Assembly (NCBI GenBank): GCA_003731685.1
Contig: RCNO01000001.1
Location: forward strand, 1,262 to 53,341
Reading direction: 5' to 3'
Length of the DNA: 52,080 nucleotides
Source of the DNA: Bacteroidetes/Chlorobi group bacterium MS-B_bin-24
GTDB lineage: Bacteria; Bacteroidota; Ignavibacteria; Kapaibacteriales; UBA2268
Below are positions 2,575-49,789 of this stretch, in pieces (position 1 is the first letter of the stretch; each line of letters opens with the position of its first letter). The translations under genes and the position numbers were made by a program. Below the pieces are notes generated by a model. That model was not told where the DNA came from and made no database searches. It saw only the letters and a program-made list of their open reading frames with translations.

Positions 2575-2575
2575 C

Positions 2576-3891: not shown

Positions 3892-3925
3892 AACAAATTC
3901 CCTTTGTTTTAAACTTTTAAATATG

Positions 3926-3933
3926 CAAAATTA
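3926..3933 (-). promoter_or_regulatory. Candidate -7 element for yebC-ruvC
   Basis: On the minus strand the octamer reads TAATTTTG, fitting the Bacteroidota -7 form TAnnTTTG and identical to that of the tRNA promoter. It lies 35 bases before the yebC ATG. I see no TTG at the right -33 spacing, so support is partial. Confidence 0.35.
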
Positions 3934-3986
3934 CTAAATTTATGATTTCTTAGGAAATAGTTTCGAGTAGGAAAAATACCAAATCG

Positions 3987-4017
3987 TTTGTCATATCATT
4001 GATTTTTATTAATTTTG
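3987..4017 (+). promoter_or_regulatory. Bacteroidota-type promoter of tRNA-Pro
   Basis: TTTG (3987-3990), a 19-base spacer and TAATTTTG (4010-4017) match the TTTG-N19-TAnnTTTG consensus of the Bacteroidota primary sigma factor. A start site some six bases downstream would fall just before the first base of the tRNA at 4030, which supports the assignment. Confidence 0.72.
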
Positions 4018-4029
4018 CATTCGAGTATA

Positions 4030-4104
4030 CGGCGCGTAGCGCAGCCTGGTTAGCGCACTACTTTGGGGTAGTAGGGGTCGCCAGTTCGAATCTGGCCGCG
4101 CCGA
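4030..4104 (+). tRNA. tRNA-Pro (anticodon GGG)
   Basis: A full cloverleaf can be drawn over 75 bases. The acceptor stem is CGGCGCG/CGCGCCG with A73, and the D arm is GCGC/GCGC. The anticodon stem CTACT/AGTAG encloses loop TTGGGGT, giving anticodon GGG with G37. The variable loop has five bases, and the T arm GCCAG-TTCGAAT-CTGGC is standard. The GGG anticodon reads CCC and CCU proline codons; G37 and A73 are usual for bacterial tRNA-Pro. The CCA end is not encoded. The gene stands alone on the + strand between two minus-strand units. Confidence 0.96.
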
Positions 4105-4105
4105 C

Positions 4106-4147
4106 AAAAATCAAAAGGGGCTTCTTTCGAAGCCCCTGATTTTTTTC
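4106..4147. terminator. Bidirectional terminator between tRNA-Pro and the Ig-repeat adhesin gene
   Basis: The stem AGGGGCTTC / GAAGCCCCT with loop TTTC is followed by GATTTTTTT on the + strand. On the minus strand the same stem is followed by TTTGATTTTTG. It therefore fits ending both the tRNA transcript and the minus-strand gene whose stop lies at 4162. Confidence 0.85.
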
Positions 4148-4161
4148 AGAACCTATTCCAA

Positions 4162-7100: not shown

Positions 7101-8955
7101 CACCCCAACCACCAGAAGATTCTTGATAAATTCCGTAAATCTTGTTTCCAACAATTTGTGCGTCTTGGCAATAAGAGCTCAATTCAATTCCAGCCAAATT
7201 TGTTCCATCGGTTCTTTTGATATTGTAAATTGTATTTCCTTTGATTTGAACTCCTTGAGCATATTGTGAAATGTAAATCCCACGATAGCCGATATAATCG
7301 GAGGAAACATCGCCACCAATGATGTTATTCAAAATTTTCAAGCTATCAAGATTCCCACCAGAAACACCATGGGAGTAAATTCCGTAATAAGCACGTCGAA
7401 CGACATTATTCTGGATAGTTACATAGTCGTTATCGCCCCCATAGATGTAAATTCCATAACTTCCAGTTTGAGATGGTGATGTATATGAATTACCAATCCC
7501 ATAGAAATTACAATTTTGCACTTTAACATTTACACAGCCAGCACCAATTCCAAGGGAATAAATCATTAACGCTGCACCAGAGGTTGCAGTAGTTGCATCA
7601 TTTCGGATTGTAAGATACCTACCGCTACCACCAATACTACCATCAATAACAACTCGGTCTGCACCATAAAGAATTACAGTACCGGTTGAGGGATAGGAAC
7701 CATAAATTGTTCGGCTGCCACCACTGGGCTTAATTGTCAATGTATAACCGCTTCCACCATATTCAGTCCATTGCCCAAGCGTAGGAGGATTTGTAGCAGT
7801 CTCATTAATATCAGTCATTATCAACAATGTAACATTTCCCTTCATTCCGAAGGTATTAATATCGGCAAATGCATCAGTAAGTGTGGGATAGTATTGCCCC
7901 GTACCAACCGCATATGTCCCAATTCTCGGACCACGAATTTCCCTGGCTCCCGAGGGATTTGTTACCGAAGGAGTATAGTTATTTGAACCAATCGAAAAGC
8001 CGGTGCATTGTGCATCGACAAAGTTCCCTTCCGTAGCCGAAGATGAAATATCGTAAACGAGCCAGAAGTAATTAGTTCCAGCCTGTAACTGTTGGGAACC
8101 AGTAAATGTCATCGTTCCCGAAGGATTATTGATGGTTGAACCAAATTGCGTTGTCGTTGAAAATGTGGTCGATGTTCCAGTGTAATACACTTTTGCACTT
8201 GCAATATCCGATACATTCGTCGTTCCGGTTGTATTAAATGTAATACTTGTTAGGCTTAATGGGTTGGCAGCACCCTGCATAGTTACTTCCAAACGAATTA
8301 TTGGTTGATTTGTAAACCCTATACCCACAGGACCGATGACTTGGGAAGTAGTTGAACTCGAATAACTCATTACATTGGGATAAGCATCATAACAAACGTC
8401 ATCAATATACATATCATTACCGTAACCACTATAGGCTTGGAAGATTATATAATTCGTGCTACCGTTAAAAGAGGATGGAATACTGTAAGTAAATTGATAC
8501 CATCCTGCTGTGGAATAATAACGATGTACAGCCCCTAATCGGGTAGCCCCTGTTAAGCTTGGAGATGTATTGACCCAAACGATAACACTATCGGGGCTTG
8601 AAGAATAACCGGGGTCCCTGTACATCCAGAAACTAACAGTAGGAGTATTTGAACCTCTTTGAGACCAATCGATTTGTGGTGTTACCAAAATAGCACTGGA
8701 ACCAGTAGTAGCAGACCAAGAATAATACCCTGCCATTCCTGCACCCGAATGAGTGGAAGCAGATGGATAGCGACCTGCGGTCAATCTTTGCCAATTATAT
8801 GAACCGGAAATAATCGAAGCAGTCCAACCGGTTGGGGGAAATGTGGTACCATCAAAAGATTCACAGTAAGTAATTGCAAGCGCAGGCAAACTAAAAGAAA
8901 ACAATGCAAAAATGGTTATTAGAATAGCAATTGATAAATAATTGTGCTTTTTCAT
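4162..8955 (-). CDS. Giant T9SS-secreted adhesin: beta-helix plus seven Ig-like domains
   Basis: The product has 1597 residues. A signal peptide (about 1-28, MKKHNYLSIAILITIFALF...) leads into a jelly-roll/choice-of-anchor-J-like region (30-195), beginning YCESFDGTTFPPTGW. A second beta-sandwich-like segment follows to about 340. Next is a long right-handed parallel beta-helix (about 345-830), with repeated VTIQNN, IKGNTIY and IVGNKIYGI turns. About seven Ig-like repeats of 85-100 residues follow (830-1505), most with a W in YQW or KWQ and a late D-x-G-x-Y. The last 80 residues (GDAVPNPMTNSAIITF... to KLIIIR) form a T9SS type A sorting domain, so the protein should cross the outer membrane and sit at or leave the surface. 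GAGG lies six bases before the ATG. An adhesion or sugar-binding role is inference. Confidence 0.9.
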   Translation of the reverse strand: MKKHNYLSIAILITIFALFSFSLPALAITYCESFDGTTFPPTGWTASIISGSYNWQRLTAGRYPSASTHSGAGMAGYYSWSATTGSSAILVTPQIDWSQRGSNTPTVSFWMYRDPGYSSSPDSVIVWVNTSPSLTGATRLGAVHRYYSTAGWYQFTYSIPSSFNGSTNYIIFQAYSGYGNDMYIDDVCYDAYPNVMSYSSSTTSQVIGPVGIGFTNQPIIRLEVTMQGAANPLSLTSITFNTTGTTNVSDIASAKVYYTGTSTTFSTTTQFGSTINNPSGTMTFTGSQQLQAGTNYFWLVYDISSSATEGNFVDAQCTGFSIGSNNYTPSVTNPSGAREIRGPRIGTYAVGTGQYYPTLTDAFADINTFGMKGNVTLLIMTDINETATNPPTLGQWTEYGGSGYTLTIKPSGGSRTIYGSYPSTGTVILYGADRVVIDGSIGGSGRYLTIRNDATTATSGAALMIYSLGIGAGCVNVKVQNCNFYGIGNSYTSPSQTGSYGIYIYGGDNDYVTIQNNVVRRAYYGIYSHGVSGGNLDSLKILNNIIGGDVSSDYIGYRGIYISQYAQGVQIKGNTIYNIKRTDGTNLAGIELSSYCQDAQIVGNKIYGIYQESSGGWGAYGINIASSTGNSNILIANNMISDLHTMNYSVSSTTYNPFGIRIAGGTNYKIYHNTINMYGNQANVGSSASMSACLLITTTSVTGTDLRNNIFVNSLGSNISGSKMYAIYVPSGFTFSTINYNDYYVSGTYGILGYYGADKTTLSDWRSSSGGDGNSINLQPYFLGNDDLHLTGSNIGDNRFLAPALSGISTDFDNETRRTSNVTIGCDEVRPILSAGITLNPSLAVYCKNGSVTLTANPSITGYMDGISRSVTNPAFAYQWTKNSNDIQNQTNQTLVFNSLVQSDSANYGCKISFFGESTIAPDKLLKVESPIVILNHPANTSICADFNPTINLSVVSDGTITGWQWQKRDANNPNVWVDIPGANGPNLVQPIANPQSAAGYYRVVIYGPGNCGPSQVASNPAYVDVTETVKNNIVSCDKDPANICETDNFTLTTSATGTITGFKWQKLIGGTWTDLDLNKFPTANQRTLEFRLADPSMSGSYRVLVYGSQACYPTGEPVASNQIDITVWPLFRIVEQPQPQSVCAGEDVMVYVVTEGVVLKHQWQKDGVDITDNPTATSPVLVVSNIKFDNSGVYRCKLTIQDCRGVVDVYSDEVLIYAHSKTKITRANKSQIVTLGSVATFDFDANVDGIPPTDEVKIQWYRGNQLLEDNDRISGSHSNYLTIRDIKASDLGSDYWVVVEGLCGSDTARGFTISAPEITILREPSSVDACEGTTVEFNVQANFTGGTRLTYQWRKDGVELQDNSRISGARTSKLTISNINTSDIGNYDVVLTLLPTGYTKNSAPAQLVVKVKPTITQQPPASINLNAGETLTISVEAEGTQPLSYTWYKDNQQVAGANQSTLVIDNVTTDNAGTYYCVVSNDCGQVRSNNTVVTVTFKQIAGVTDAVDGVILGDAVPNPMTNSAIITFTIPDDGKVELLLTDILGGSLVKLYDGFASKGTTRVVVNTEDLNLTNGVYVYKLRFNGVELSKKLIIIR

Positions 8956-9001
8956 AAAAACCTCAATTTTTATTTAACAAACAAAACCTGATATGCAAGT
9001 A

Positions 9002-9032
9002 CAAAAATACAAATTTTTCATTAAAAAACAAA
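9002..9032 (-). promoter_or_regulatory. Bacteroidota-type promoter of the Ig-repeat adhesin gene
   Basis: Read on the minus strand, TTTG (9032-9029), a 19-base spacer and TATTTTTG (9009-9002) match TTTG-N19-TAnnTTTG. A start near 8996 would leave a leader of about 40 bases with GAGG before the ATG at 8955. Confidence 0.6.
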
Positions 9033-9043
9033 AAAACATTTAT

Positions 9044-10048
9044 TTATTTGAATTTATAACTTTTAACCATTTCCCAATGCATTTTTTTGGTTAGATATTC
9101 CTTAAAATTATTTTTTTCGCCTCCAACTGAAAGAGCAATATCTAAACTAATACTCAAAGATTGAACTATACCGGCAGAACTTAGAATTTGTTGAAAATTC
9201 CCTTTCCCAGTCTCAATTGAATAAGGAAGTGAAAGAGTCTTAACACCATAGAATTTAGTTTTTTTCCACTTACTAATTGGCTTCGAGAAGACGCCCTCGA
9301 TAGAATACCTATTGTTCGAGAAACCAGTGCATTTAACAGCAACTGTATCGTAAACAATTAAACCATCCAGATATAAATCAATTGGGGAAAACCAAATTGA
9401 ATCTCTAAACACTGGCGTTGACGGATAAATAATTTTAACCACGTCGCCGATGTGTTTCAATCGGGAATCGCTCAGTCCATCAGTCCAATTATAAAGCCAA
9501 ATCGTGTCTGTAACAGCAGGTTTTAATGTATCAACAAATTTCCTTTTTTCCAAAAGTCTATCACCTTCGATTTTAGCAACCTCGCCGTAGGGTGAATAAA
9601 CAATTGTAAACTCTACTCCCATTGGCACACTGTAAGTCTGAAAATCCTCGAATTTAAAAACACCAGGGCTTGCAGTTTCAATGTTAGAAAATTCATAGAT
9701 ATTTTGTCCTTCTTCGAATTTATAATAAATTGAATCAATTGCGACTTCTATAAAAGAAAAGCCATTTTTGGGGGCATCGGGTTGCACAAAAGTCATATAA
9801 TATGTCATTGTCCGCTTAAACTTCTTAATCGAACTATCGGGATAAACACGCACCACAAAGGCTGTGTCATAAAGATTATAATTATAGTAAATCTGAGTTC
9901 TGAAAACAGGTTTAAGCGTATATGCCGGCGGGAGATTGCCTTCCTTTGCCCCCGTTACAGTTTTTTCTTGTCCCAAAAGCCCAAAAACATTTAAAATTCC
10001 TGCAATGCAAGATATAGCGACCAACTTGCCAAGGTCATTCCATCCCAT
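9044..10048 (-). CDS. Secreted protein of unknown function (334 aa)
   Basis: I do not recognise this gene with certainty. The N-terminus MGWNDLGKLVAISCIAGIL is a plausible signal peptide ending near residue 26. The remainder is beta-rich, with many aromatic residues and no obvious catalytic motif. The segment VEFTIVYSPYGEVAKIEGD recalls periplasmic DUF6263-like proteins, but this is a weak impression. Its ATG start makes the first 58 bases overlap the 3' end of the Nudix-fold gene in another frame. No good later start keeps the signal peptide, so I keep this start. It is the last gene of the probable sucD-ndk-Nudix unit; an export or envelope role is all that can be inferred. Confidence 0.72.
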   Translation of the reverse strand: MGWNDLGKLVAISCIAGILNVFGLLGQEKTVTGAKEGNLPPAYTLKPVFRTQIYYNYNLYDTAFVVRVYPDSSIKKFKRTMTYYMTFVQPDAPKNGFSFIEVAIDSIYYKFEEGQNIYEFSNIETASPGVFKFEDFQTYSVPMGVEFTIVYSPYGEVAKIEGDRLLEKRKFVDTLKPAVTDTIWLYNWTDGLSDSRLKHIGDVVKIIYPSTPVFRDSIWFSPIDLYLDGLIVYDTVAVKCTGFSNNRYSIEGVFSKPISKWKKTKFYGVKTLSLPYSIETGKGNFQQILSSAGIVQSLSISLDIALSVGGEKNNFKEYLTKKMHWEMVKSYKFK

Positions 10049-10524
10049 ATTTCACCTTTTTTTATTTTCGATTCAATTTCACTTTTAGAAAGAAGAATAG
10101 GGCTAATTTCCTCGCTTTCATCGAGGTCTTGTTTGGAAAGTTCTAAATTTTTCGCCAAAAAAACATAGCAAATTTCATCGGTCAAACCATTACAAGGGTT
10201 AAACTGCCCAATTTCGATAAGTTCCCCAGCAACATAACCAGTTTCTTGTTTAAGTTCAAGATGTGCATTCTCGCGTAGCGAATAATCGGGTTTTAAACCG
10301 CCTCCGGGAAATTCCAAACTCATTTTACGATTCAAGTATCTATATTGATTTGTCATCACGAACTTTTCATCCAAAATCGGAATGACCATTGCTGAACCAG
10401 GGGTGTGCACATAATAATACTTCCCCTGCTTCAAATTTGGTAGGATGTACTCATCGACACGATAGTCCCAATATGGATTACTTTCGACTATTTTTTCAGA
10501 TACTTTCTGATACTTTCGGTACAC
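9991..10524 (-). CDS. Nudix-fold hydrolase (ADP-ribose pyrophosphatase-like), degenerate box
   Basis: The 177-residue product has the layout of ADP-sugar/ADP-ribose pyrophosphatases: VITDEKFVMTNQYRY-like strand pairing, LEFPGGGL, then a Nudix helix ending LELKQETGY. Compared with the consensus GX5EX7REUXEEXGU, the first Glu is Tyr, the Arg is Leu and one Glu of the EE pair is Gln, while the Glu of RE, the second Glu of EE and the Gly remain. Catalysis may be changed or weak. The start is a GTG (MYRKYQKVSEK); no ATG lies nearby. It follows ndk by 55 bases and overlaps the next gene by 58 bases. The fold is well supported; the substrate is not known. Confidence 0.82.
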   Translation of the reverse strand: MYRKYQKVSEKIVESNPYWDYRVDEYILPNLKQGKYYYVHTPGSAMVIPILDEKFVMTNQYRYLNRKMSLEFPGGGLKPDYSLRENAHLELKQETGYVAGELIEIGQFNPCNGLTDEICYVFLAKNLELSKQDLDESEEISPILLSKSEIESKIKKGEIWDGMTLASWSLYLALQEF

Positions 10525-10579
10525 AATTTTTTAAACTGCAAGTTAAATTTAATAAAAACACATAAAAAATGAAAAAGTT

Positions 10580-11005
10580 TCAACGATTCCAAACCAATTC
10601 GCTAAGTGCAAAGAAGAAAGCGACTTCCCGCTCTCCGTTTTCTGGAGAGTCTGAACCATGAATTGCATTTCTTTCGATATTTGTTCCGTATAGTTTTCTG
10701 ATGGTTCCTTCTTCGGCTTTTGCAGGGTCGGTGATTCCTATTAATTTCCGGAAATCTTCTATTGCATTCTCTTTTTCCAGTGCAATTGGTACCACAGGTC
10801 CACTGGTCATATATTTAACAAGAGACTCAAAAAATGGCTTATCTTTGTGAACTTCATAAAATGCTTTTGCTTGAGCCTCGGTTAATCTGGTATACTTCAT
10901 ACCCAAAATTTTAAACCCCGCATTTTGTATCCGTTGAATAATATCGCCGATAACCTGCTTTTCGACTGAATCTGGCTTAATAATTGCAAGTGTTCTTTGT
11001 TTCAT
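10580..11005 (-). CDS. ndk: Nucleoside diphosphate kinase
   Basis: Ndk moves the gamma phosphate from ATP onto other (d)NDPs through a phospho-histidine. The product has 141 residues, the normal length, and starts MKQRTLAIIKPDSVEK. The active-site segment NAIHGSDSPE contains the phosphorylated His (H116). GITDPAKAEEGTIRKLYG matches the substrate-binding stretch. It lies 18 bases downstream of sucD; the succinyl-CoA ligase/Ndk pairing makes sense because Ndk equilibrates the GTP or ATP made by that enzyme. Confidence 0.98.
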   Translation of the reverse strand: MKQRTLAIIKPDSVEKQVIGDIIQRIQNAGFKILGMKYTRLTEAQAKAFYEVHKDKPFFESLVKYMTSGPVVPIALEKENAIEDFRKLIGITDPAKAEEGTIRKLYGTNIERNAIHGSDSPENGEREVAFFFALSELVWNR

Positions 11006-36463: not shown

Positions 36464-37228
36464 TCAAGATAGCTTTTCACTCAAAATAGACTCGATTTTA
36501 TTTTTTGGAATATTGAAAATAAATGTTCCCGATTCGGCGATGGAAATCCAACCAGTTTCTTCCGAAACCACAAGCACAAGCGCATCGGTTTGTTCCGACA
36601 ATCCAAGCGCAGCTCGATGGCGAGTTCCAAGCAGTCGCCCTTCTAATTTGGTAACCGTTGACAAAGGCAAAATGCACTTTGCAAATAAAAGGTTCGAGCC
36701 CTCTATCAAAACAGCACCATCGTGCAAAGGCGACTTCGGGTTAAAAATCGAAAGCAACAGCTCCTTCGAAACTCTGGCACCTATTGGTACACCTGTGTCA
36801 ACATTCATCTCGACATTTTGAGAGCGAACAAAAACAATCAATCCGCCTATGTGATTTTCAGACATTTCCTTCACGGCAGAAATAACTTCGTCAATGGTTT
36901 GGGTTAGATTCGTCCGAAGGAAAAATCTTAGGAATGGCAAATTAGAAAGCCTAAGCAAAACTCGCCGCAATTCAGGCTGGAAAAGAATTATAAAAGCCAG
37001 CAGCCAAACCCCCATCACAGATTTCAGTAGCCAATTTATTGCACGCAAGTTAATCATTTCGCTAATAAAAGTCATAAAAATCAAAAGAACCAATCCAAAA
37101 AGAATTTGAACCGCAACAGTATCTTTCAAAAGATTATACATCCAATAAAAAATTACAAAAAGAAGAACCAAATCGAGAAGGTCGAGAAAAGTAATTTGAA
37201 GAAATCCAATCTTGAAAATTTCAAACAT
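36464..37228 (-). CDS. cdaA: Diadenylate cyclase CdaA (c-di-AMP synthase)
   Basis: CdaA makes c-di-AMP from two ATP. The 254-residue protein has three N-terminal membrane helices (about 10-85). A DAC domain follows with the catalytic SPLHDGAVLIEG (DGA) and GTRHRAALGLSEQTDA (RHR), plus a VSEETGWIS end. The membrane part and FQPELRRVLLRL linker are typical of CdaA rather than DisA. No cdaR (YbbR) or glmM is adjacent; it is joined to phoH instead by a one-base stop/start overlap (TAATG). c-di-AMP commonly governs potassium, osmotic and cell-wall balance. Confidence 0.95.
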   Translation of the reverse strand: MFEIFKIGFLQITFLDLLDLVLLFVIFYWMYNLLKDTVAVQILFGLVLLIFMTFISEMINLRAINWLLKSVMGVWLLAFIILFQPELRRVLLRLSNLPFLRFFLRTNLTQTIDEVISAVKEMSENHIGGLIVFVRSQNVEMNVDTGVPIGARVSKELLLSIFNPKSPLHDGAVLIEGSNLLFAKCILPLSTVTKLEGRLLGTRHRAALGLSEQTDALVLVVSEETGWISIAESGTFIFNIPKNKIESILSEKLS

Positions 37229-38241
37229 TAGGTTTTATCCGAATTTTTCTCTTTCTGTTGCTTTTGCAATTGCTTGCTTTCAGCCTCATCCTGATAAGCC
37301 TTAATAATGCGAGCGACCAGTTTATGGCGAACTACATCCTTTTCATCAAAATAAACAAAAGCAATACCTTCGATGTTTTGGAGCAATTTATTTGCATTTA
37401 TCAATCCGCAATCTTCGGGATTTTGCAAGTCAATTTGGGTGATATCCCCAGTTACAATTACCTTCGAATTATTACCCATTCGTGTAAGGAACATTTTCAT
37501 TTGGGTAATAGTGGCATTTTGAGCTTCATCGAGAATAATGAAAGCATTGCTCAAAGTTCTACCTCGCATATAAGCAAGAGGTATAATTTCAATTATGTTT
37601 TTTTCGGAATATGTTTTTAATTTCTCGCTCGAAAGCATATAATACAAAGCATCGGTTAATGGCTTTAAATATGGGTCCAGCTTCTCTTTCAAATCGCCCG
37701 GCAAAAAGCCTAATGATTCCCCTGTTTCGACTGCAGGCCTGGAAAGTATAATTTTCTCTATTCGGTTCTTCTTCAATTCGGCAAGAGCCATAGCAACAGC
37801 AAGGAAAGTTTTGCCAGTTCCCGCTGGTCCAATTGCAAAAACAATATCGTTCTCGGCAACTTTCTTAACATATTCGACCTGTTTTAGATTTTTGGTTTTG
37901 ATTGGACCTTTTGCACTATGGTAAACTACGATTTCGTCGGGATTTGAACTCTTACTTCGAGCCCGAACTGTTGTATCCTCCTCGGTCATTAGCTCCAAAA
38001 CAGTTGAGAGGTCGTTATCCGAAATTGTTCCGCTCCGTCGATGAATATATCCAAGCTCTTTAAAGATTGCTTCGATAGATTTTACCTCTTCGGGTGAACC
38101 TTTCAGAACAAGACTGCTCCCTCTCAAAGTAATTAAAGTATTAAATTTATTTTCTATTACCTGAAGTAATTGGTCATTGTACCCAATAAAGTACAGAAAA
38201 TCCTTATCTTCAAGGTGGATTGTTTTTTCAGTAACTTCCAT
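37228..38241 (-). CDS. phoH: PhoH-like ATPase
   Basis: The 337-residue protein has a small N-terminal KH-like region (NDQLLQVIENKFNTLITLRG, about 20-70) and a PhoH ATPase domain. The latter has Walker A IGPAGTGKTFLAVAMAL, SRPAVETGESLGFLPGD and AFIILDEAQNATITQMKMF (Walker B). The family has RNA-linked ATPase or helicase roles, often next to ybeY in other bacteria; ybeY is not here. The ATG at 38241 is preferred to the TTG three codons upstream. It leads the run phoH-cdaA-pcm-miaA-dacB-permease, all with gaps of 16 bases or less. Confidence 0.94.
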   Translation of the reverse strand: MEVTEKTIHLEDKDFLYFIGYNDQLLQVIENKFNTLITLRGSSLVLKGSPEEVKSIEAIFKELGYIHRRSGTISDNDLSTVLELMTEEDTTVRARSKSSNPDEIVVYHSAKGPIKTKNLKQVEYVKKVAENDIVFAIGPAGTGKTFLAVAMALAELKKNRIEKIILSRPAVETGESLGFLPGDLKEKLDPYLKPLTDALYYMLSSEKLKTYSEKNIIEIIPLAYMRGRTLSNAFIILDEAQNATITQMKMFLTRMGNNSKVIVTGDITQIDLQNPEDCGLINANKLLQNIEGIAFVYFDEKDVVRHKLVARIIKAYQDEAESKQLQKQQKEKNSDKT

Positions 38242-38273
38242 ACCTTTCAAAATAGTGAAACATAATAAAACAC

Positions 38274-39589: not shown

Positions 39590-42500
39590 TCACTTTTTCA
39601 AAATTACAATTTTACTTAAAAATTTGCCATTTTCAATTATCAAATAAAACATCGATTCAGAATATGAACTTAAATCAATGAGGTTAACTCCCTCTCCCAA
39701 TGTTGCTTTACAAATTTCCCTACCAAGAAAATCGAAAATTCGAACTTTATAATTGCCCTCGAAAGGTAATTTAATGAAGACCAAACCATCCGTCGGATTT
39801 GGAAAAACAGAGAAACCATTTTCATCAATTTCAACTACGGATGCACTAATAGTTCTAAATTGCCAAACAGTTGACCAAGGACCCGTTCCAACATTATTTC
39901 GCCCTGCCACTCTCCAAAAATATTCTACATCGGGCTCAAGCGATGTCAAATGTTTATAAATAGCTGATTGTACAAATTTTTCCGTTACAAGTGAATCAAA
40001 TGTCGGGGACTTACTCAATTGGAAAATGTAATCATCGACATTTTCAATCTGTGTCCATTTAAAAGTTGGTTTCAATGGTACTCCACTGGCATTATCTTCG
40101 GGAGATGTTAAAACAACAACCGATGGCAATGTGTTTGTTTCGAAAGAAAATACTTCGGACCACACCCCATCTCCATCTTTATTAACTGCTCGAACTCTCC
40201 AATAATAGTTTTTCGCAGGATATAAATAGTTAGAATCCAATGTCAAAATTGTGTCCTTAAGCCCTTTTAGATATAAAAGCGGATTTTGGAAACTATTCTC
40301 TTCGGCAATTTGAAATTCAAAGGAAACCTCAACATCAAGGTATTTTTGGAACTTCGGTCGGTTCCATTTGAATGTTGGCGTTAGGTTCATCTTTTTTGAA
40401 TCATTAATCGGGGCAATTAGCTGAATTGCTGGTGGGATTGGATTGCCCACAAAAAAAGTGTAAACACTCGACCAAGATGATGTATCTTTGGTTGTTATTG
40501 CTCTAACTTTCCAAAAGTATTGCTTCGACTTGCTACCTTTGTTCCAACAAAGTGTGCTATCGTTCGAAAAATATTTTTGAGAATTTTTAAAATCTTTATC
40601 TTCTGAAATTATTATTTCATACGAAGTTGCTCCATCAACAAAATTCCAAACTAAACACAAAGAATCGGGTAAGTTTTGCTGGAAGTTTTTGGGATAAATC
40701 AACACGGGAGTAGATGTTAGCAACTTTTTCAGTTCATCATTATACTTGATCAAGTAAATATTATTCGCTTTAACATTAGTGTATTTTTTTCTAAAACCAT
40801 TTAAATAAATAACAACAACACTATCGATAATTCTCGTGTTGCCTAAACCAAAATGCAAAGTGTTTGAATTTTGCGAGCAACGATTCCCCGATATACTGCC
40901 CATCAGTTCTCGATAAAATTTTCTTCCACCAGCATAAAGGTAAATTTTAGTTCCGTAGCAATCCATATTCACAGAATTTTCGGGACTTCCAATTAATCTA
41001 AACTTTACCCAGTTCCCTTTTCGTTCTAAATCATTTCGCAATAGACGGACACCTTCGAATGGGCTTGCAACGAGCAAATCCAAATCCCCATCGTTGTCAT
41101 AATCAATTCTAACAGCATTCCAAGGTCCGTGAATAATCGCTCCAACTTCCCAAGTTTTATCAATTAATTTAAAATCGGGGGCACCTGTATTAAAATATAT
41201 TCTTCCGGGTCGTTTTGGTTCGCCCCCGTCTCCTTCGGCACGATAAGAGATTTGGCCATGCCAAAGGTCAAGATAGCCATCCAAATCGAAATCTCCCCAA
41301 GTCATACCTGCGTTCATTTCGAAAAACTTCAAACCCATTTTCTGATGTACTTCCCTAAACTTATAATCCGGTGGTCCTTGATTTTCGAAGATCAAAGAAG
41401 GATTTGAATACATTCCGCGCCAATCAGGATGTCCCAGATTCCCAACAGCCAAATCCGGATTTCCATCATTGTTGAAATCGCCCCACTCGGCTCCCATTCC
41501 ATGTCCAAAATAATTTGGCGCAGCGGTTGGAACACCTTGAACACCCGTAACATCGCCAACATTTGTAAATGTTCCATCCCCGTTGTTTTTATAAAGCAAA
41601 TCTCTCACTAATCGATAATTTGCAACAAAAATATCAACTTTACCATCGTTATTATAATCACAAGCATTTGCACCGTAACAATCGTAATATCCCAATGCGC
41701 CACCACTTGGACTAAAAAGTTCAAATTGAGTTAAGCCAGCGGTCTTTGTCACATTTTTAAATTTCCCATTCTTATCTTGAATCCACAATTGGTCTGGGAA
41801 GTATCTTTCAACATAATTCCCTGCAACCGTTACGCCAACGCGATTGTTTGCAAGAAATAAATCCAGCCGGCCATCGCCATTAAAATCTGCCCACAATGGC
41901 GTTATACAATTGTATGGATTTGGTATCGAATCCTGTTGATTGGGAGTAGAAAGATTAAAATCTTCCGATGGACTGGGATATGGCAAGCTAAAAATGTCCT
42001 TCGGATTTAACATTGTAAATGTTCCATTGCCATTATTTTTATAAACTCTATCAAGCGAAAAGACCATCTTCAAATTTTCATCGTAATTTCCATTTCTCAA
42101 TGCATAACAATCGATAAACCCATCATTATTGAAATCGCCCCAAGAAGTCATCGAAGCTGTGATATTAAATTTCTTGCTCACATCAGTAAAGGTGCCGTCT
42201 CCGTTGTTCTGGAAGAAATAACTCCCTATGGCAATGTCGTCCCAACCATCGTTGTTCCAATCGACAACACTAACATCATTGCTTCCGATGTATTTCCCAT
42301 CGGGCAAAGTCAATCCTACTTCCGTTGTAACATCAAAGAATTGTGGAACGGGTGGCTTTGCAGAAGTGCTATCGAGAGGATAAACATATTCCACCACAAG
42401 TCGAACAAGGAAATCACCATTAGCAATGTAGTAATTGCCCGGTCCACCCAAAGAATTATTTTCAAAAGGATTCATCAAGAAAGAAGAATAAGGGGTTGAT

Positions 42501-42943
42501 AATCCATCATTATCAATTGCAAAAAAGGGTCCCTTTTGGTTCAAACGGTGAAGAATAACAACCCTATCTAACCCAGCCAGATAAATATTCCCAGCTGGAA
42601 ATTCATACCATCCCGGTTTTCCTTGATAATCGAAAATGATTGGGTCCGTTTTTAAATTATAATTGGCAACCCAAAGCGTTGGAGGAAGGTAACCTTCGGA
42701 AGGGTCCCCCATTATGTAAATGGTATCTCGGTTCTGATAATCTCCAACAAAGTAAATCTGGATTTTTTTCAAAATGCAAGGACCGTCTGGTTTTAAAATT
42801 TTACTTTCTTCCCAGAAATAACGCTCAACATAACCAGAGGTTTTTGGTATGTTGTTGTCATTCTTAACAACAACATCGAGAGGAAACAATTTGTTCGAAA
42901 ACAAGAAAGAAAAAACCACAAAGAAGTAAAAAAACTTTCTCAT
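39590..42943 (-). CDS. FG-GAP/UnbV propeller protein with fibronectin-like repeats and T9SS tail
   Basis: The true start is probably the ATG at 42943 (MRKFFYFFVVFSFLFSNKLF, a signal peptide), eight bases beyond the upstream stop; the track's extra 53 residues overlap that gene. The 1117-residue product has a beta-sandwich N-terminus. A propeller (about 210-660) follows with seven Ca-binding motifs of the DxNxDGxxD type (e.g. DWNNDGWDD, DYNNDGKVD, DYDNDGDLD). An ASPIC/UnbV domain (VKFRLIGSPENSVNMDCYG) comes next, then three fibronectin-III-like repeats with YWRVRAVN or YFWRVAG. It ends in a T9SS type A tail (FSVFPNPTDGLVFIKL). It should be a large surface or secreted Ca-binding protein. Adhesion or glycan binding is inference. 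Confidence 0.9.
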   Translation of the reverse strand: MRKFFYFFVVFSFLFSNKLFPLDVVVKNDNNIPKTSGYVERYFWEESKILKPDGPCILKKIQIYFVGDYQNRDTIYIMGDPSEGYLPPTLWVANYNLKTDPIIFDYQGKPGWYEFPAGNIYLAGLDRVVILHRLNQKGPFFAIDNDGLSTPYSSFLMNPFENNSLGGPGNYYIANGDFLVRLVVEYVYPLDSTSAKPPVPQFFDVTTEVGLTLPDGKYIGSNDVSVVDWNNDGWDDIAIGSYFFQNNGDGTFTDVSKKFNITASMTSWGDFNNDGFIDCYALRNGNYDENLKMVFSLDRVYKNNGNGTFTMLNPKDIFSLPYPSPSEDFNLSTPNQQDSIPNPYNCITPLWADFNGDGRLDLFLANNRVGVTVAGNYVERYFPDQLWIQDKNGKFKNVTKTAGLTQFELFSPSGGALGYYDCYGANACDYNNDGKVDIFVANYRLVRDLLYKNNGDGTFTNVGDVTGVQGVPTAAPNYFGHGMGAEWGDFNNDGNPDLAVGNLGHPDWRGMYSNPSLIFENQGPPDYKFREVHQKMGLKFFEMNAGMTWGDFDLDGYLDLWHGQISYRAEGDGGEPKRPGRIYFNTGAPDFKLIDKTWEVGAIIHGPWNAVRIDYDNDGDLDLLVASPFEGVRLLRNDLERKGNWVKFRLIGSPENSVNMDCYGTKIYLYAGGRKFYRELMGSISGNRCSQNSNTLHFGLGNTRIIDSVVVIYLNGFRKKYTNVKANNIYLIKYNDELKKLLTSTPVLIYPKNFQQNLPDSLCLVWNFVDGATSYEIIISEDKDFKNSQKYFSNDSTLCWNKGSKSKQYFWKVRAITTKDTSSWSSVYTFFVGNPIPPAIQLIAPINDSKKMNLTPTFKWNRPKFQKYLDVEVSFEFQIAEENSFQNPLLYLKGLKDTILTLDSNYLYPAKNYYWRVRAVNKDGDGVWSEVFSFETNTLPSVVVLTSPEDNASGVPLKPTFKWTQIENVDDYIFQLSKSPTFDSLVTEKFVQSAIYKHLTSLEPDVEYFWRVAGRNNVGTGPWSTVWQFRTISASVVEIDENGFSVFPNPTDGLVFIKLPFEGNYKVRIFDFLGREICKATLGEGVNLIDLSSYSESMFYLIIENGKFLSKIVILKK

Positions 42944-42950
42944 AGTCCAT

Positions 42951-43784
42951 CTATGCAAATTGTTCAAAAATTCCAACTTTTCTTGCACAAACAAGTTGAC
43001 CAACAAAAGCCCCAATCTTTTCTGCTGCGTTTCCATTTCTAATTCCAAGCTCAAGGAAACCACTACTACCAATATAAGCAAGGAACTCACCTTCTTCGAC
43101 ATCAGAATAGGTTGTACTTATGTTCTTTATTTTCGTATGCCCAATTTCAAACTTCCATTTCAAATCTTGCTTCAAAATATTATGCATATTAATCCCCAAA
43201 GAAATATAACTCAACGAGCTAATAATATTTCCGAACCTGTCGATATGAACCACTTCACCAATAAGATTCCCAAAACTATCGTAATAGCTTTTCAAGGGGG
43301 AAAGTTTAACAAGTTTCGAAAGTGGATATTCCTCGCCAAATTCAGCTAAATCAATGCCCATTGCAAGATAGGCAGCCATTGGAGCAAAAATATCACGCCC
43401 GTGAAAAGTTTTGCTGGGATTTTCAAGTTGATACTTTTCGTTTGTAAACAAATGAACTTTGGGTAGCTTAAAATTATTTAGTGTATAGGTCAAAATTCCA
43501 TTATCGGGGGCAACAAAGAAATACTTCCCTGCCCGAACACAAATCGCATTGCGATTTGAGCCCACACCGGGGTCTACAACAGCAACGAATATTGTTCCCT
43601 CGGGGAAATATTTAACTGAGGTCATCAATACAAAAGCAGCCTGTCTGATATTTCGAGGTTCAATCGAGTGTGTAATATCTATTATCTCCACATTTGGATT
43701 GATTGACAGAATCGTTCCTTTCATTATCCCAACATAATTATCAACCAATCCAAAATCGGTCAACAAAGCAATAATATTTTTCAT
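42951..43784 (-). CDS. SAM hydroxide adenosyltransferase (SAM hydrolase, DUF62 family)
   Basis: The 277-residue product begins IALLTDFGLVDNYVGIMKGT and has DITHSIEPRNIRQAAFVL, FVAVVDPGVGSNRNAI and FVAPDNGILTY. This is the pattern of the fluorinase-like family that attacks SAM with hydroxide to give adenosine and methionine. The C-terminal barrel has VHIDRFGNIISSL and LGIRNGNAAEKIGA. The 21- to 23-residue loop specific to fluorinases is not seen, so it is a hydrolase. Its physiological role is unclear. It lies seven bases before the large T9SS propeller gene, a pairing with no obvious metabolic sense. Confidence 0.93.
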   Translation of the reverse strand: MKNIIALLTDFGLVDNYVGIMKGTILSINPNVEIIDITHSIEPRNIRQAAFVLMTSVKYFPEGTIFVAVVDPGVGSNRNAICVRAGKYFFVAPDNGILTYTLNNFKLPKVHLFTNEKYQLENPSKTFHGRDIFAPMAAYLAMGIDLAEFGEEYPLSKLVKLSPLKSYYDSFGNLIGEVVHIDRFGNIISSLSYISLGINMHNILKQDLKWKFEIGHTKIKNISTTYSDVEEGEFLAYIGSSGFLELGIRNGNAAEKIGAFVGQLVCARKVGIFEQFA

Positions 43785-43888: not shown

Positions 43889-45379
43889 ATGTTCGGTTTA
43901 AGTCGAAAATTTTTCGTTTTGCTTCTTTTGATTTTGCTAAATCAAAAAGACATCCTTTCGTATTCTAAATTCCCTGTGATGACTATAAATCCTCTAAATA
44001 GGCTTACTATCTACTTCGAGAAGTTCCCAAAAGATTTTCAATCCTATTTAAATTCGACAAAGACTTTAATATCTGTTGTTATTTATGACATTGAAAACAA
44101 TACCAAAGAGGATTCTGTTGTTTCCGATGGCATTATCTCGAAAGCAACACTTAAAAAATTTTCTAATCACATTGAAATAAACGTATACTTAAAATCACCC
44201 AGAGGATACACAATCGCACCCCTTGAATTCACTAAATCTCTTATGATTGAAGTTTTCGATTGGAATTCTCTTAGTCCCGAAGAAGAAAACTATCGTATGG
44301 GATTGCTTTCTCTGACGGGTAACCTTGCGGTAGCAAGAAAATACTTTGAATCCGCATTTAACGGGAATATCGCCAACGCTGGCTTTTTCCTTGGATACCT
44401 CTACTTAAAAGCAAACGAAATCGAAAAGGCAAAGGAAGTTCTCGAAAAAGCGGAGACCTTGGGTTGCAACATTCCCGATTTATTCTTTGCTCTGGCTCAA
44501 ATTTTCGACATAATGAAAGACAAAGCCAAAGCAGATGCTTACCGAACAAAATATTACAAAAACCAAGGAACTGCAAAATACAATCCAATCGAAATCGACA
44601 CTGCCTTAAAAGATTCGATTTTCAAAGAAATTACAGAACTTTTGCCTTTGGAAAGAAATGAACAAACTACCGAGAAAAAACTAAGCCCAGATACTTCCAA
44701 TCAACAAAAGCCAATCGTCATTTCCGAACAAGAGGTAACTCCGAAACAGGAGCGATTTTCAATTTTCGAAAAAGTTCTGATTTTCCTTGGTGTTTCAATC
44801 ATTCTGCTTTCTTTGTTACTAACATCGCTCTATTTCAAATGGAAAAGGGAAAAGAAATTGCGTGAGATAAAGAAAAAATTCGAAAACGAACTGCTGAAGC
44901 AAAAACACACTGCATCGAGTGCCCTTGCAGCAAGACTCTACAAAAAGAGCGAAGCAGAGGCAAAGGAAATTTCGGAACAGGAAGCAGACAAAACTCAATC
45001 CCCTAGCACTTTTAATCCCGAAGTCAAAGAACTTGCAGAAAAAATCATTAGTGCCAAACGGCAAGAACAACAAGAAAGCCCAACCGAACAACCAACGATA
45101 GCCGAAAAATCTTCTTCTTCCCCAAAACCGAAAATTCCGTTGAGAGTGGAAAAAGCAATGCAACTCCAAAAAGAGCAAATGGAATTGATTAAACAAAAAT
45201 TCGGGAAACTCGAAACAAGAGATATCCCCACAAGCAAAGAGAAGCTCGAAGAACTTGCCAAAAATCTTGGCATCAACAAAAGTTCACTCTTGGCAAAAAA
45301 GAACATCGAAGCGATGAGCAAAAACAAAGATTTATATGAGAAGTTATTCAAAAAATTTTTCAAAAAAAGCAGTGAATAA
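43889..45379 (+). CDS. Membrane protein with TPR-like repeats, one TM and coiled-coil tail
   Basis: I do not recognise this 496-residue protein by name. A signal peptide (about 1-25, LSRKFFVLLLLILLNQ) leads a beta-rich exported part (to about 130). TPR/Sel1-like helices follow (about 130-230: GNLAVARKYFESAFNGN, LGYLYLKANEIEKAKEVLEKAE), then a linker. One clear TM (about 295-318, VLIFLGVSIILLSLLLTSLYF) precedes a long charged cytoplasmic region with coiled coil and Pro-rich stretches. The small C-terminal helical part reads LEELAKNLGINKSSL. It thus spans the inner membrane with the TPR part in the periplasm. It is the first of three + strand genes ending in a PorV-like barrel, so an envelope-assembly role is possible. 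Confidence 0.78.
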   Translation: MFGLSRKFFVLLLLILLNQKDILSYSKFPVMTINPLNRLTIYFEKFPKDFQSYLNSTKTLISVVIYDIENNTKEDSVVSDGIISKATLKKFSNHIEINVYLKSPRGYTIAPLEFTKSLMIEVFDWNSLSPEEENYRMGLLSLTGNLAVARKYFESAFNGNIANAGFFLGYLYLKANEIEKAKEVLEKAETLGCNIPDLFFALAQIFDIMKDKAKADAYRTKYYKNQGTAKYNPIEIDTALKDSIFKEITELLPLERNEQTTEKKLSPDTSNQQKPIVISEQEVTPKQERFSIFEKVLIFLGVSIILLSLLLTSLYFKWKREKKLREIKKKFENELLKQKHTASSALAARLYKKSEAEAKEISEQEADKTQSPSTFNPEVKELAEKIISAKRQEQQESPTEQPTIAEKSSSSPKPKIPLRVEKAMQLQKEQMELIKQKFGKLETRDIPTSKEKLEELAKNLGINKSSLLAKKNIEAMSKNKDLYEKLFKKFFKKSSE

Positions 45380-45432
45380 ACTAAAAGGCTTCTTGTTTTG
45401 TCTATATTTATTGTGTGTTACAATTTGGTAAA

Positions 45433-45996
45433 ATGAATTATCGATATTTTTTTACTAAATATTTACTTTTAATTTTCCTAAACTTCTTTCTTACCTTTGC
45501 ACTTTATGGGCAATCTTCGGTGAATTATCCATATTTGAGCCCCTTTTTCTATCCTAACTATGAAAATATTTACAATGATACTTGTTTGTATTTTCCCGAA
45601 TTGATTTTTACAGTCGGCGGAGTCCAACCTTCGAAACGATATGCCCAAATAGAGATAAAAAAACAAGACAAGAAAATTAACAACGGGAAAAAACTCGAAA
45701 GACTTTACGAAAATGATACAACATCGACGAAAGGAAACCGAATTGTTTCGATACAAGAAACTGAACGAGGCGACAAAATGGCTGTATATTTAGAAATTGA
45801 AAACCCCGAGCAAAAAATTAAGATAATCGTTTACAACTTGCTGGGCAAAAAAGTTTTGGATATTTACGAAGGGAAACCCAAAGACCCTTCCCAACCCTAT
45901 GAATTTAGCGTTGCCGAACTTCCAAAAGGAATTTTCCTCCTCGTAGTTGTTGGAGACAATTTCAGATTAAGAGAAAAACTTGTGGTAACAAAATGA
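45433..45996 (+). CDS. Small exported protein consisting mainly of a T9SS-like sorting tail
   Basis: The 187-residue product from the ATG at 45433 has a signal peptide (MNYRYFFTKYLLLIFLNFFL...YGQ). A short variable region of about 85 residues follows. The C-terminus of about 80 residues (VYLEIENPEQKIKIIVYNLL to LREKLVVTK) has the strand pattern of T9SS type A sorting domains. No other passenger domain is visible. The stop overlaps the start of the PorV-like gene by four bases (ATGA). The GTG at 45415 is rejected as a start because the ATG begins a cleaner signal peptide. It may be a minimal cargo or a structural partner of the barrel. Confidence 0.8.
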   Translation: MNYRYFFTKYLLLIFLNFFLTFALYGQSSVNYPYLSPFFYPNYENIYNDTCLYFPELIFTVGGVQPSKRYAQIEIKKQDKKINNGKKLERLYENDTTSTKGNRIVSIQETERGDKMAVYLEIENPEQKIKIIVYNLLGKKVLDIYEGKPKDPSQPYEFSVAELPKGIFLLVVVGDNFRLREKLVVTK

Positions 45997-47036
45997 TAAA
46001 AACGAATTTTAAGTTTTTGGTTTCGCTTCTCTTATTTATCTTTTTGAACCAAATCTCGTTACCATTAATTGCACAAAGGCAAGGCGGTGGGTTTTCGGGT
46101 GCTTATTTATTTAGGGAAAACGGAACCCGTCCCATATCGCTGGCGGGAGCGTATACTGCTATTTCGAACGACCCTTACACGATATTTTACAATCCCGCAG
46201 GGTTGTCATCCTGTGCACCAGTTCCAATGGTTTACTCCTCGCTCTCTTTAATGGAGTTTAGCCGAAATTATGCAAATCTAACCTACGCCCAATCAATTGG
46301 TGATTTCGGAATCGGGGCATCCATTTCTTCTCATTATGCTGGAAGTATTATTGCCCGAAACAGAACAGGGAACGAATTTGGCAAGTTATCCGACTATTTC
46401 TTTAATCTTGCTCTCGGTGGTTCTTTCGCTACAAATTTTGCCAGTTTTGGCTTGGTAGTTAAATATCTTAACAATACTCTTCAAGGCTCCGATGTAAGTG
46501 GTTCAGGCGTTGCTTTCGATTTCGGCTCGAAATTTAATATGATGGACTTATTTACTTTCGGAATCGTTGTGCAAAACATTGGTGGAATTATTAAGTATAA
46601 TACAAGGTCAGAAAAAAGCAACATTCCATTTACCATTCGAAGTGGTATTGCTATGGAATTCCCCTTGTCGGCAGAAAAAATCATAACCTTCCGCAACGAA
46701 CTTGGTATGGAAGATACAATCATTCAACCTCCGCCCAAATATCTTCTATTTTCAATCGAATCCAATTACATTCAATATGAAAAGTATCCAAATTTCATTC
46801 TTGCCTGCGAATTCGCACCTTTCGAACTTTTAGCCTTTCGTGGTGGCATAACTTTGGCAGGCAATGACGAAGGAAAATTCAAACTTCTTCCATTTACAAC
46901 TTGGGGTGCAGGTGTCTCGATAAAACCTAACCTCAAAGACTTTTACAATCTTTTTTGTATCGACCTTTCTTTAGGAAACGACTTTCTCGCCGAAAAGAAG
47001 ATTTTCTATACAATAGGCATCGGAATTCAATTCTAA
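45993..47036 (+). CDS. PorV/PorQ-family outer membrane beta-barrel protein
   Basis: The 347-residue product has a signal peptide (to about residue 30) and the family opening FLFRENGTRPISLAGAYTAISNDPYTIFYNPAGLS (quoted loosely from YLFRENG and ISLAGAYTAISNDPY). Repeated amphipathic strands follow, ending in aromatic YTIGIGIQF as outer-membrane barrels do. PorV carries T9SS cargo to the attachment complex and PorQ holds the surface-exchange complex; which of these, if either, this protein matches is not decidable here. Its ATG lies in the stop of the T9SS-tail protein gene, so the two are made together. Confidence 0.85.
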   Translation: MIKTNFKFLVSLLLFIFLNQISLPLIAQRQGGGFSGAYLFRENGTRPISLAGAYTAISNDPYTIFYNPAGLSSCAPVPMVYSSLSLMEFSRNYANLTYAQSIGDFGIGASISSHYAGSIIARNRTGNEFGKLSDYFFNLALGGSFATNFASFGLVVKYLNNTLQGSDVSGSGVAFDFGSKFNMMDLFTFGIVVQNIGGIIKYNTRSEKSNIPFTIRSGIAMEFPLSAEKIITFRNELGMEDTIIQPPPKYLLFSIESNYIQYEKYPNFILACEFAPFELLAFRGGITLAGNDEGKFKLLPFTTWGAGVSIKPNLKDFYNLFCIDLSLGNDFLAEKKIFYTIGIGIQF

Positions 47037-47242: not shown

Positions 47243-49789
47243 ATGGTAGAACTTGTGAATTCGAATTGGGATGAATTCATTGAAAATCTTTTAAGTCTTG
47301 AAATAATAAAAGATTATTTCCCTGAAATCATTGAACAATACAATGTTTTGATTGACAAATACAAATCCGAAGAAGATTGGGTTGCAAACTTCCCTTTCCC
47401 CGCTTTGATAACAAATCTTGACGGGGATATTCACCAAGCAAACAAAGAAGCACTTTCATTCTTCCAAATTAAATCAAAAGAAAGTATCATTTCAAAGAAA
47501 ATCACAGAGTTTGGATTTCCTTTCGATCTGGAAAATTTCGAGTTCTTTGAAAGAAAATACTTGCTTACAAAAGCAAAATTCTCTTCCTTAAACTTTCCTA
47601 AAAACATTGAACAAAAAATATTCATTCACTTATACAACATTAAAGGCGAATCCTATTTGCTATGGGTTATTCTTTTCAAAAACAATGATGAGGACTTATT
47701 CTACCAAAACGTCAAAACATTTGAAGAACTCAAATTAATTCTTGAGCACATCCCCTATGTCATTTATGTTAAAGATAAGTATAACAGAATCCTTCGTGTG
47801 AATAAGTTTTTCTGCGAAAAATTCCATAAAAATAAAGATGAAATCGAAGGTTTATTCATTGAATCAATTTTTTCGGAAGAGGTAGTAAAAAATTGCAGAG
47901 AAAAAGACCTTCTAATCATTAAAACGGGGAAACCAATTACTGGAAGTGAGGAAAAATTTTCGATTAATGGCAAAATTGAAAACTTTTTTATTGTTGAAAG
48001 ACTCCCCCTGTTCTACGAAAATCAAGTTTCAGGAATTTTGCTTTTTGCCTTCGACATAACAGAAAAAAAGAAGACAGAAATTGAACTCCGCCGATGGAAA
48101 AAACGATTCGATTTTACAACAACTGCAACTGGTCAAGCAGTTTTCGAACGAGACTGGGAAACAGGCGAAGTTATTTGGACAGACAATATCAAAGACCTTT
48201 TTGGCTATTCTAAAAAGGAATTGAACAAGAGGGAAAGATGGCTCGAAAAAATTGTCCCTGCCGATTTGGATAACTATTTAGCCACTTTTCAGAAGCATTG
48301 CGAAAACTTATCACCCTATAATCTAATCTATCGAATAAAAAATGCTAATGGTGAGCAACGTTATGTGAAGGAAAGTGGATTTTTCCTTTCGGACGAGGGT
48401 AGAATAATTTCGATTGTTGGAATTATCAGCGACATCACAAATCAAAAAGACCTTGAACAAAAGGTTTCCGATTATAACACTTTTCTCCACGTCCTTTTGG
48501 ACACCATCCCAATGCCAATATTTTATGAAAATATCGAAGGAAAATTTATTGGATGCAATAAATACTTCCAAGAACAAATATTACAAATAAGCAAAAAGGA
48601 ATTTTTGGGTAAAACTGTTAACGATTTCCCAAATATATTTGGAGAAAGTTTTAGAACAAAACATCAAGAGACGAACCAAAAGATTATCCAGAAAGAAAAG
48701 GTCGAAAGTTACGACGAAAAAATTACATTGCCCGATGGCTCAGTTCGAGATTTTGCAATTTTCAAGGCAGGATACAAAGATTTCGACGGCGAACTGGCTG
48801 GCATTATAAACATCTTAATCGACATTACCGACCGTAAAACTGCCGAAGAGCAACTCAGAAATATCAACATTGAACTGGAAAAGAAAATTGAAGAGCGAAC
48901 CCGAGACCTCCAAACCGCTTTGGACGAATACAAATTCGAAGTCGATGAACACCGCAGAGTTCAAGAGATTCTTGAGCAAGCCAATTATGAACTGAAAATC
49001 CTAAACGAAACATTAGCCGAGGAAAGCCGAAAACTTATTGTTCTTAACGAAAAACTTACAAATTCGGAAAAGGAACTTCGCGAAGCTAATTCCGCAAAAG
49101 ATAAGTTCTTTTCAATTATTGCTCACGATTTAAGAAATCCTTTGCAATCGATACTAACAGATTCCGAAATTCTCGACCGCTTTTTCGATACATTTTCTCC
49201 CGAAAAGGGTCGTGAATATGTTCACCATATTTACAAAACCTCGACACTACTAAAAAATTTGCTGGAAAATCTGCTCACTTGGGCTAAAACCCAAACAGGC
49301 AGAATTTCTTATCGCCCTGAATGGATTAATATCAACCTCCTGATTAATGACATTGTTCGATACATTGAGCCAACTGCAAAGAACAAGGAAATTTCGATTG
49401 TTTACAACAAAGACATCGACTTTATGGTCTACCTCGATAGGAATATGATTACCACAGTGCTTCGCAATCTCCTTTCCAATGCGATTAAATTTTCTTACAG
49501 AAATTCAAATGTTTACATCGACATACAAAATTTCTACGAAGGGAATATTCCATCGTTAAAAGTCTCGGTTCGCGACGAAGGAATTGGAATTCCCAAAGAC
49601 ATACAGGAAAAACTTTTCAAAATTGAATATAGCATCACAACAAAGGGAACCGAAAAGGAACACGGGACTGGGCTTGGATTAATACTTTGCTACGAACTTA
49701 TCAAACTACATAATGGAAGAATTTGGGTCGAAAGCGAGGAAGGCAAAGGAACAACATTTACGTTCGTAATCCCAATAAATTTTGACTAA
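47243..49789 (+). CDS. Soluble multi-PAS sensor histidine kinase
   Basis: The 848-residue protein has no TM segments, so it senses in the cytoplasm. Four PAS-like domains can be placed at about 45-150, 165-280, 283-405 and 412-540 (e.g. DITEKKKTE, SDITNQKDLE, DITDRKTAEE at PAC ends). A coiled coil (about 540-630) leads to HisKA with FFSIIAHDLRNPLQSI (phospho-His) and HATPase_c. The latter has NLLSNAIKFSY (N box), VRDEGIGIP (G1) and GTGLGLILCYELI (G2), closing VPINFD-like with FTFVIPINFD. A GGAG lies about ten bases before the ATG. No receiver domain or response regulator gene is in the window. The signal is unknown; PAS3 is the most canonical. Confidence 0.93.
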   Translation: MVELVNSNWDEFIENLLSLEIIKDYFPEIIEQYNVLIDKYKSEEDWVANFPFPALITNLDGDIHQANKEALSFFQIKSKESIISKKITEFGFPFDLENFEFFERKYLLTKAKFSSLNFPKNIEQKIFIHLYNIKGESYLLWVILFKNNDEDLFYQNVKTFEELKLILEHIPYVIYVKDKYNRILRVNKFFCEKFHKNKDEIEGLFIESIFSEEVVKNCREKDLLIIKTGKPITGSEEKFSINGKIENFFIVERLPLFYENQVSGILLFAFDITEKKKTEIELRRWKKRFDFTTTATGQAVFERDWETGEVIWTDNIKDLFGYSKKELNKRERWLEKIVPADLDNYLATFQKHCENLSPYNLIYRIKNANGEQRYVKESGFFLSDEGRIISIVGIISDITNQKDLEQKVSDYNTFLHVLLDTIPMPIFYENIEGKFIGCNKYFQEQILQISKKEFLGKTVNDFPNIFGESFRTKHQETNQKIIQKEKVESYDEKITLPDGSVRDFAIFKAGYKDFDGELAGIINILIDITDRKTAEEQLRNINIELEKKIEERTRDLQTALDEYKFEVDEHRRVQEILEQANYELKILNETLAEESRKLIVLNEKLTNSEKELREANSAKDKFFSIIAHDLRNPLQSILTDSEILDRFFDTFSPEKGREYVHHIYKTSTLLKNLLENLLTWAKTQTGRISYRPEWININLLINDIVRYIEPTAKNKEISIVYNKDIDFMVYLDRNMITTVLRNLLSNAIKFSYRNSNVYIDIQNFYEGNIPSLKVSVRDEGIGIPKDIQEKLFKIEYSITTKGTEKEHGTGLGLILCYELIKLHNGRIWVESEEGKGTTFTFVIPINFD

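Follow-up and report, generated by a model that had tools for sequence, protein, structure and literature searches.

A PorV-family outer-membrane barrel and a TPR/TM protein that co-occur with flagella in the order Ca. Kapabacteria

PflA consists of an N-terminal AMIN-like β-sandwich followed by TPRs (PMC12222027, PMC11870540), and MotK of C. sphaeroides likewise combines AMIN and TPR domains (PMC13023049). PflB of the Campylobacter motor contains TPRs and a single TM helix (PMC7990780). In type IX secretion (T9SS), CTD proteins are the natural type of ligand of the PorV/PorQ shuttles, as with PorQ and PorZ (PMC5562754). Operons comprising a PorE homologue, a CTD protein and an SprF-like shuttle have been described (PMC12618676), as well as a PorE-PorP-PG1035 trimer (PMC9143113). 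In these PorE-PorP and SprF:SprB systems, a periplasmic anchor, a CTD protein and its cognate outer-membrane barrel are encoded together. The locus described here resembles both the flagellar and the secretion proteins, and differs from each.

The locus lies in a window of 52,080 nucleotides (the whole stretch of DNA that was analysed) from Bacteroidetes/Chlorobi group bacterium MS-B_bin-24. Ca. Kapabacteria/Kapaibacterium and 'Ignavibacteria' MAGs are its nearest named relatives, which places the window in this order. The locus comprises genes for a TPR/TM protein, a short T9SS CTD protein and a PorV/PorQ-family barrel (Table 1). An earlier note on this DNA had reported the three genes, with 53 bases between the first two and an ATGA overlap between the last two; the open reading frames and the sequence confirm this observation. 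An in-frame GTG is found 18 bases upstream of the ATG of the CTD gene.

Table 1. Features of the three-gene module, in window coordinates.
Feature	Position	Strand	Details and basis
TPR/TM protein gene	43889..45379	+	496 aa; ORF list, AlphaFold2 model, orthologues
AMIN-like N-terminal β domain, residues 31-123	43979..44257	+	9 strands in model; Pfam AMIN sub-threshold
TPR region, six helices, residues 130-226	44276..44566	+	Pfam TPR_8 E 3e-5; pLDDT mostly 90-98
Single TM helix, residues 295-317, then KWKREKK	44771..44839	+	Sequence; helix 292-338 in model; W318
Conserved C-terminal helical domain of TPR protein, residues 418-490	45140..45358	+	Alignment A2; model
Short T9SS CTD protein gene	45433..45996	+	187 aa from ATG; TIGR04183; conserved family, alignment A3
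C-terminal 7-strand sandwich of T9SS CTD type, residues 101-187	45733..45993	+	AlphaFold2 pLDDT 94-98; 8glk_D
ATGA stop-start overlap, CTD gene / barrel gene	45993..45996	+	Sequence
PorV/PorQ-family outer-membrane barrel gene	45993..47036	+	347 aa; NF033709, PDB profile match, tree

In the AlphaFold2 model of the TPR/TM protein, the signal peptide is followed by a putatively AMIN-like β-sandwich and by TPRs, and a disordered linker leads to the single TM helix and a helical tail. Given the signal peptide and the TM helix, the TPR array is predicted to be periplasmic, and the basic stretch following the TM helix would place the tail in the cytoplasm according to the positive-inside rule. With its putative periplasmic AMIN-like and TPR domains, single TM helix and basic cytoplasmic start, the protein is a plausible inner-membrane link, as had been proposed. 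Residue W318 is invariant in alignment A2, where the C-terminal domain is largely absent from the L137/L138-type members. The Pfam matches to TPRs are weak, and the array has only about three repeats. Of 23 members examined, six match Pfam AMIN over the N-terminal domain, more than match any other family (best E 0.0066); since these matches are sub-threshold the assignment is tentative. No PDB entry was linked to this domain at the sequence level. A search of the model with Foldseek returned as top PDB match chain K of 9hmf, the C. jejuni flagellar periplasmic scaffold (E 7e-5), with low TM-scores and an E-value lead over generic TPR proteins of less than one order of magnitude. Chain K was taken as PflA by its length. 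No recognised DNA-binding or signalling domain was matched over threshold in the window protein or among the 25 commonest Pfam families of the 23 members; a helix-turn-helix in the tail was considered and rejected, as just HTH_10 was matched, at E 0.1. OmpA-like peptidoglycan-binding and WD40 domains were likewise found neither in the window protein nor among these 25 families.

The TPR/TM protein shares with PflA and MotK TPRs, a predicted periplasmic location and a linkage to flagella, together with a putative AMIN-like sandwich, and 9hmf_K is its top structural match. It differs from PflA, in which 16-17 TPRs are present and a TM helix is absent, and it departs from both proteins by its additional cytoplasmic domain, its sub-threshold AMIN match and the outer-membrane barrel encoded beside it. 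It has TPRs and a single TM helix in common with PflB, but its TPR array is much smaller and it includes a putative AMIN-like domain, none being described for PflB. Each of these structural clues is weak alone; they are independent of the co-occurrence data presented below, and agree with these in pointing to the flagellar motor.

The short protein had been described as little more than a signal peptide and a T9SS-like sorting tail. This is accurate: the signal peptide is followed by about 75 residues modelled with low confidence and by a CTD that matches TIGR04183 (23.6 bits, cut-off 23). The score against PF18962 (24.6) is just below the cut-off of 27. The C-terminal part is confidently modelled with a T9SS CTD fold, as the proposal of the earlier note required, and its top PDB match is the CTD of a T9SS substrate, NucA in a T9SS complex (8glk_D, E 7e-4). 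Likely orthologues occur in the absence of the barrel in genomes G028, G029 and G030 and in families f2 and f7. Conversely, in the genera g14 and g20 the barrel and the TPR protein are retained and no CTD gene was detected upstream of the barrel gene. This distribution does not support the suggestion of the earlier note that the short protein is a dedicated partner or plug of this barrel; the CTD protein often accompanies the TPR and barrel proteins and leads a life of its own. Two candidate PorU/PorZ neighbours of solitary CTD genes were examined and rejected as T9SS sortases: a 1,450-residue choice-of-anchor-D/CTD protein in f2, and a chemotaxis-receptor-like protein with a partial PorZ match in f7. 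In families f10 (L139 8464-9981) and f8 (L150 1147-2691), the CTD protein encoded upstream of the barrel exceeds 500 residues, with repeat-like sequence ahead of the CTD and no NCBIfam match.

The barrel passes the PorV-family model NF033709 (96.2, cut-off 90), and its profile matches the PorV structure 6h3i_F in the PDB (E 1.7e-6). The proposed membership in the PorV/PorQ family therefore stands at the family level; the PorV and PorQ equivalog models NF033710 and NF033711 were both failed, with scores of 35.8 of 250 and 49 of 220. The genome contains separate PorQ and PorV-like genes, so that the window barrel was rejected as either of these and constitutes an extra, distinct member of the family. 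In the tree, the barrels of the order form a single clade (support 100/100), apart from the PorV-like protein, the PorQ and the third PorV-family proteins of the genome and from members of other phyla. Among 393 genomes of the phylum, the barrel was found at E <1e-60 only in this order, and it was absent from 78 sampled FlhA-bearing genomes outside the order. Compared with the PorV and PorQ shuttles, the barrel is thus of the same family and is encoded with a protein of the natural ligand type, but it scores below the equivalog cut-offs, forms its own clade, co-occurs with flagella, and its gene overlaps that of the CTD protein. Compared with the PorE-PorP and SprF:SprB sets, which are encoded in a similar way, the module has a barrel of PorV/PorQ type and a CTD that fits the type A model, and its TPR protein carries a TM helix and gives no match to PorE domains.

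The order of the three genes is conserved across Ca. Kapabacteria, and matches to all three proteins lie side by side in most of 60 relatives. Conservation of the neighbourhood, on which the earlier note had staked its proposal, is therefore present. Of 40 Kapabacteria-like loci, 36 have the CTD gene immediately upstream of the barrel gene, in general only a few bases away, and 27 of the 40 also contain the TPR gene, so that the module is beyond chance. The ATGA overlap is confined to the genus of the window and a few others. The note had further stated that coupling of cargo genes to a PorV-type gene is not the norm. This holds for PorV, but type B CTD genes commonly adjoin PorP/SprF shuttle genes (PMC12618676).

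In many families, the module forms the 3' end of a flhF-flhG-X-fliA-HDOD-histidine kinase cluster. Twelve loci contain, in this order, an SRP54-type GTPase (FlhF), a ParA/MinD protein (FlhG), X, a FliA-type sigma factor, mostly an HDOD protein and a histidine kinase, then the TPR, CTD and barrel genes. Most flagellated relatives encode this protein X, of 130-270 residues and with no Pfam match, between flhG and fliA (L129 4170-4841, L099 4428-4952). In the genus of the window, the module is located away from flagellar genes, yet it is kept in all five species. Flagellar genes were reported as not gathered in one cluster in Ca. Thermonerobacter, a Kapabacterium (PMC6338057). In the genus of the window, most species (L113, L114, L116) have a PAS-rich histidine kinase gene 3' of the module, at window positions 47243-49789 (+ strand) here; it is not found in this place elsewhere.

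Co-occurrence with flagella was assessed in 103 genomes of the order that are at least 90% complete, a genome being counted as flagellated when FlhA or FlgH was found. The barrel is present in 65 of 68 flagellated genomes and the TPR protein in 63, versus none of the 35 non-flagellated genomes for either protein (Fisher p of 2e-24 and 2e-22, respectively, phylogeny being ignored). Barrel and FlhA also agree in 57 of the 60 relatives. Both proteins were lost together with flagella within genera g3 (G030 vs G006), g17 (G084 vs G020, G085 and G086) and g25 (G028 vs G092 and G093), as well as in genus g49 of family f9 and in families f2 and f7. Genomes G034, G060 and G061 are flagellated and lack both proteins, which indicates that the pair is not universally required, unless the genes fall in assembly gaps. 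A full TPR match is missing from G014, a highly fragmented assembly, and from G026, where a partial match lies just upstream of the barrel gene. An apparent case of a barrel without flagellum (G043, devoid of FlhA) was dismissed, as FlgH is present and the genome counts as flagellated. The barrel was also rejected as a replacement of the L-ring, as FlgH is found in nearly all flagellated genomes. It is probable that the TPR protein and the barrel serve the flagellum.

A natural deletion in genus g25 was examined by comparing the locus of the flagellated genome G092 (L129), used as reference, with that of the non-flagellated G028 (L111). The genes flanking the module are mostly 94-97% identical at the protein level. 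Two separate segments of L129 are missing from L111. One, 2215-9338, runs from flhF into the TPR gene and takes in most of the latter; the other, 9990-10884 (895 bp), contains most of the barrel gene. The CTD gene between the two deletions is intact and 83% identical. It follows that the CTD protein has, or had, a use that needs neither flagella, nor the barrel, nor the TPR protein. The deletions that spare it also set the barrel and the TPR protein apart as a flagellum-linked pair, of which the CTD protein is not a dedicated plug. Survival of the CTD gene after loss of both neighbours thus separates two questions that were merged in the earlier note. The scar of the deletion is visible in G028, as the CTD open reading frame (L111 9849-10412, - strand) opens with about 36 residues left over from the 3' end of the TPR gene.

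We give about even odds to the explanation that the Kapabacterial flagellum includes the TPR/TM protein and the PorV-family barrel as accessory envelope components. In the mechanism that we propose, the TPR/TM protein would be anchored in the inner membrane and expose its AMIN-like and TPR domains to the periplasm, like proteins of the PflA/MotK type, and would scaffold or position the motor. On the distal side, the barrel, which is related to the T9SS shuttle barrels but specialised, would act as anchor or partner in the outer membrane. It could hold a CTD protein exported by the T9SS, usually the product of the gene that lies between those for the TPR protein and the barrel, in the manner of PorQ with PorZ or SprF with SprB. 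Such a scaffold with an outer-membrane anchor is quite possible, if slightly short of an even chance. It is suggested more tentatively, as possible rather than probable, that a shuttle-type barrel was recruited as an outer-membrane part of the motor and forms with the inner-membrane AMIN-TPR protein an envelope-spanning motor scaffold specific to Kapabacteria. Under the proposed mechanism, the three proteins may be in physical contact at the motor and may affect its torque or placement.

The tight coupling of the CTD and barrel genes could also denote a cognate pair of shuttle or anchor and cargo, similar to PorQ:PorZ or SprF:SprB, in which case the TPR protein would anchor to the cell wall in the way of PorE. 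The cargo would then be a surface protein of the flagellar regulon, for adhesion or surface sensing, and no part of the motor. The CTD-type fold, the precedents cited above and the large size of the CTD protein in two lineages (L139, L150) are in favour of this explanation, but the CTD protein persists in genomes devoid of the barrel, the barrel and the TPR protein are found without a detected CTD gene, and the TPR protein combines a TM helix with the lack of OmpA-like and WD40 matches; we deem it unlikely. The view that the CTD protein is the dedicated partner or plug of the barrel, in a module unrelated to flagella, likewise draws on the conserved adjacency of the two genes. It is contradicted by the occurrence of each protein without the other and by the strong co-occurrence of the barrel with flagella, and is given scarcely any credence.

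The position of the TPR gene directly downstream of fliA, HDOD and histidine kinase genes in many genomes, together with the conserved C-terminal domain, would fit a regulator with a periplasmic sensor, a TM helix and a cytoplasmic tail, feeding the kinase, the HDOD protein or FliA, the barrel being merely co-regulated. This is quite unlikely: no DNA-binding or signalling domain was recognised over threshold, the C-terminal domain is largely missing from the L137/L138-type members, and the tracking of flagella by the barrel would be left unexplained. The adjacency to flhF-flhG-fliA in many genomes could further mean that the genes simply hitch-hike in a flagellar operon, with no functional link, and disappear with it by large deletions. 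The two separate losses in G028, which spare the CTD gene, argue against this, as does the retention of the module away from flagellar genes in the genus of the window. Moreover, the flagellated genomes G023 and G035 retain both TPR and barrel genes, even though the two are found on different contigs or with some 30 kb between them. Little credence is therefore given to hitch-hiking.

The reading as accessory envelope components of the flagellum, which we prefer, suggests that protein secretion lent the flagellar motor one of its accessory parts. Components of the T9SS would in that case have been recruited to the flagellum, and periplasmic and outer-membrane accessory structures of flagella would be predictable from sequence in this branch of the Bacteroidota. 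The TPR-barrel pair provides a concrete, testable gene pair for the study of this type of flagellar motor. Each part of the module is of a known kind; the searched literature did not contain their combination, with a PorV-family barrel whose presence is tied to flagella. No paper linking a PorV-family barrel to flagella was retrieved in this search, which covered mainly freely accessible papers.

Two other regions of the window deserve mention. A 1170-residue FG-GAP/UnbV/CTD protein (39590-43102, - strand) has its listed start inside the upstream gene for a SAM hydroxide adenosyltransferase (42951-43784), and a signal peptide at residue 53 (MRKFFYFFVVF) suggests that the true start is downstream of the listed one. 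At 36464-37228 and 37228-38250 (- strand), a CdaA-type diadenylate cyclase is encoded beside PhoH and a LysM/coiled-coil protein, an arrangement that is conserved in the genus.
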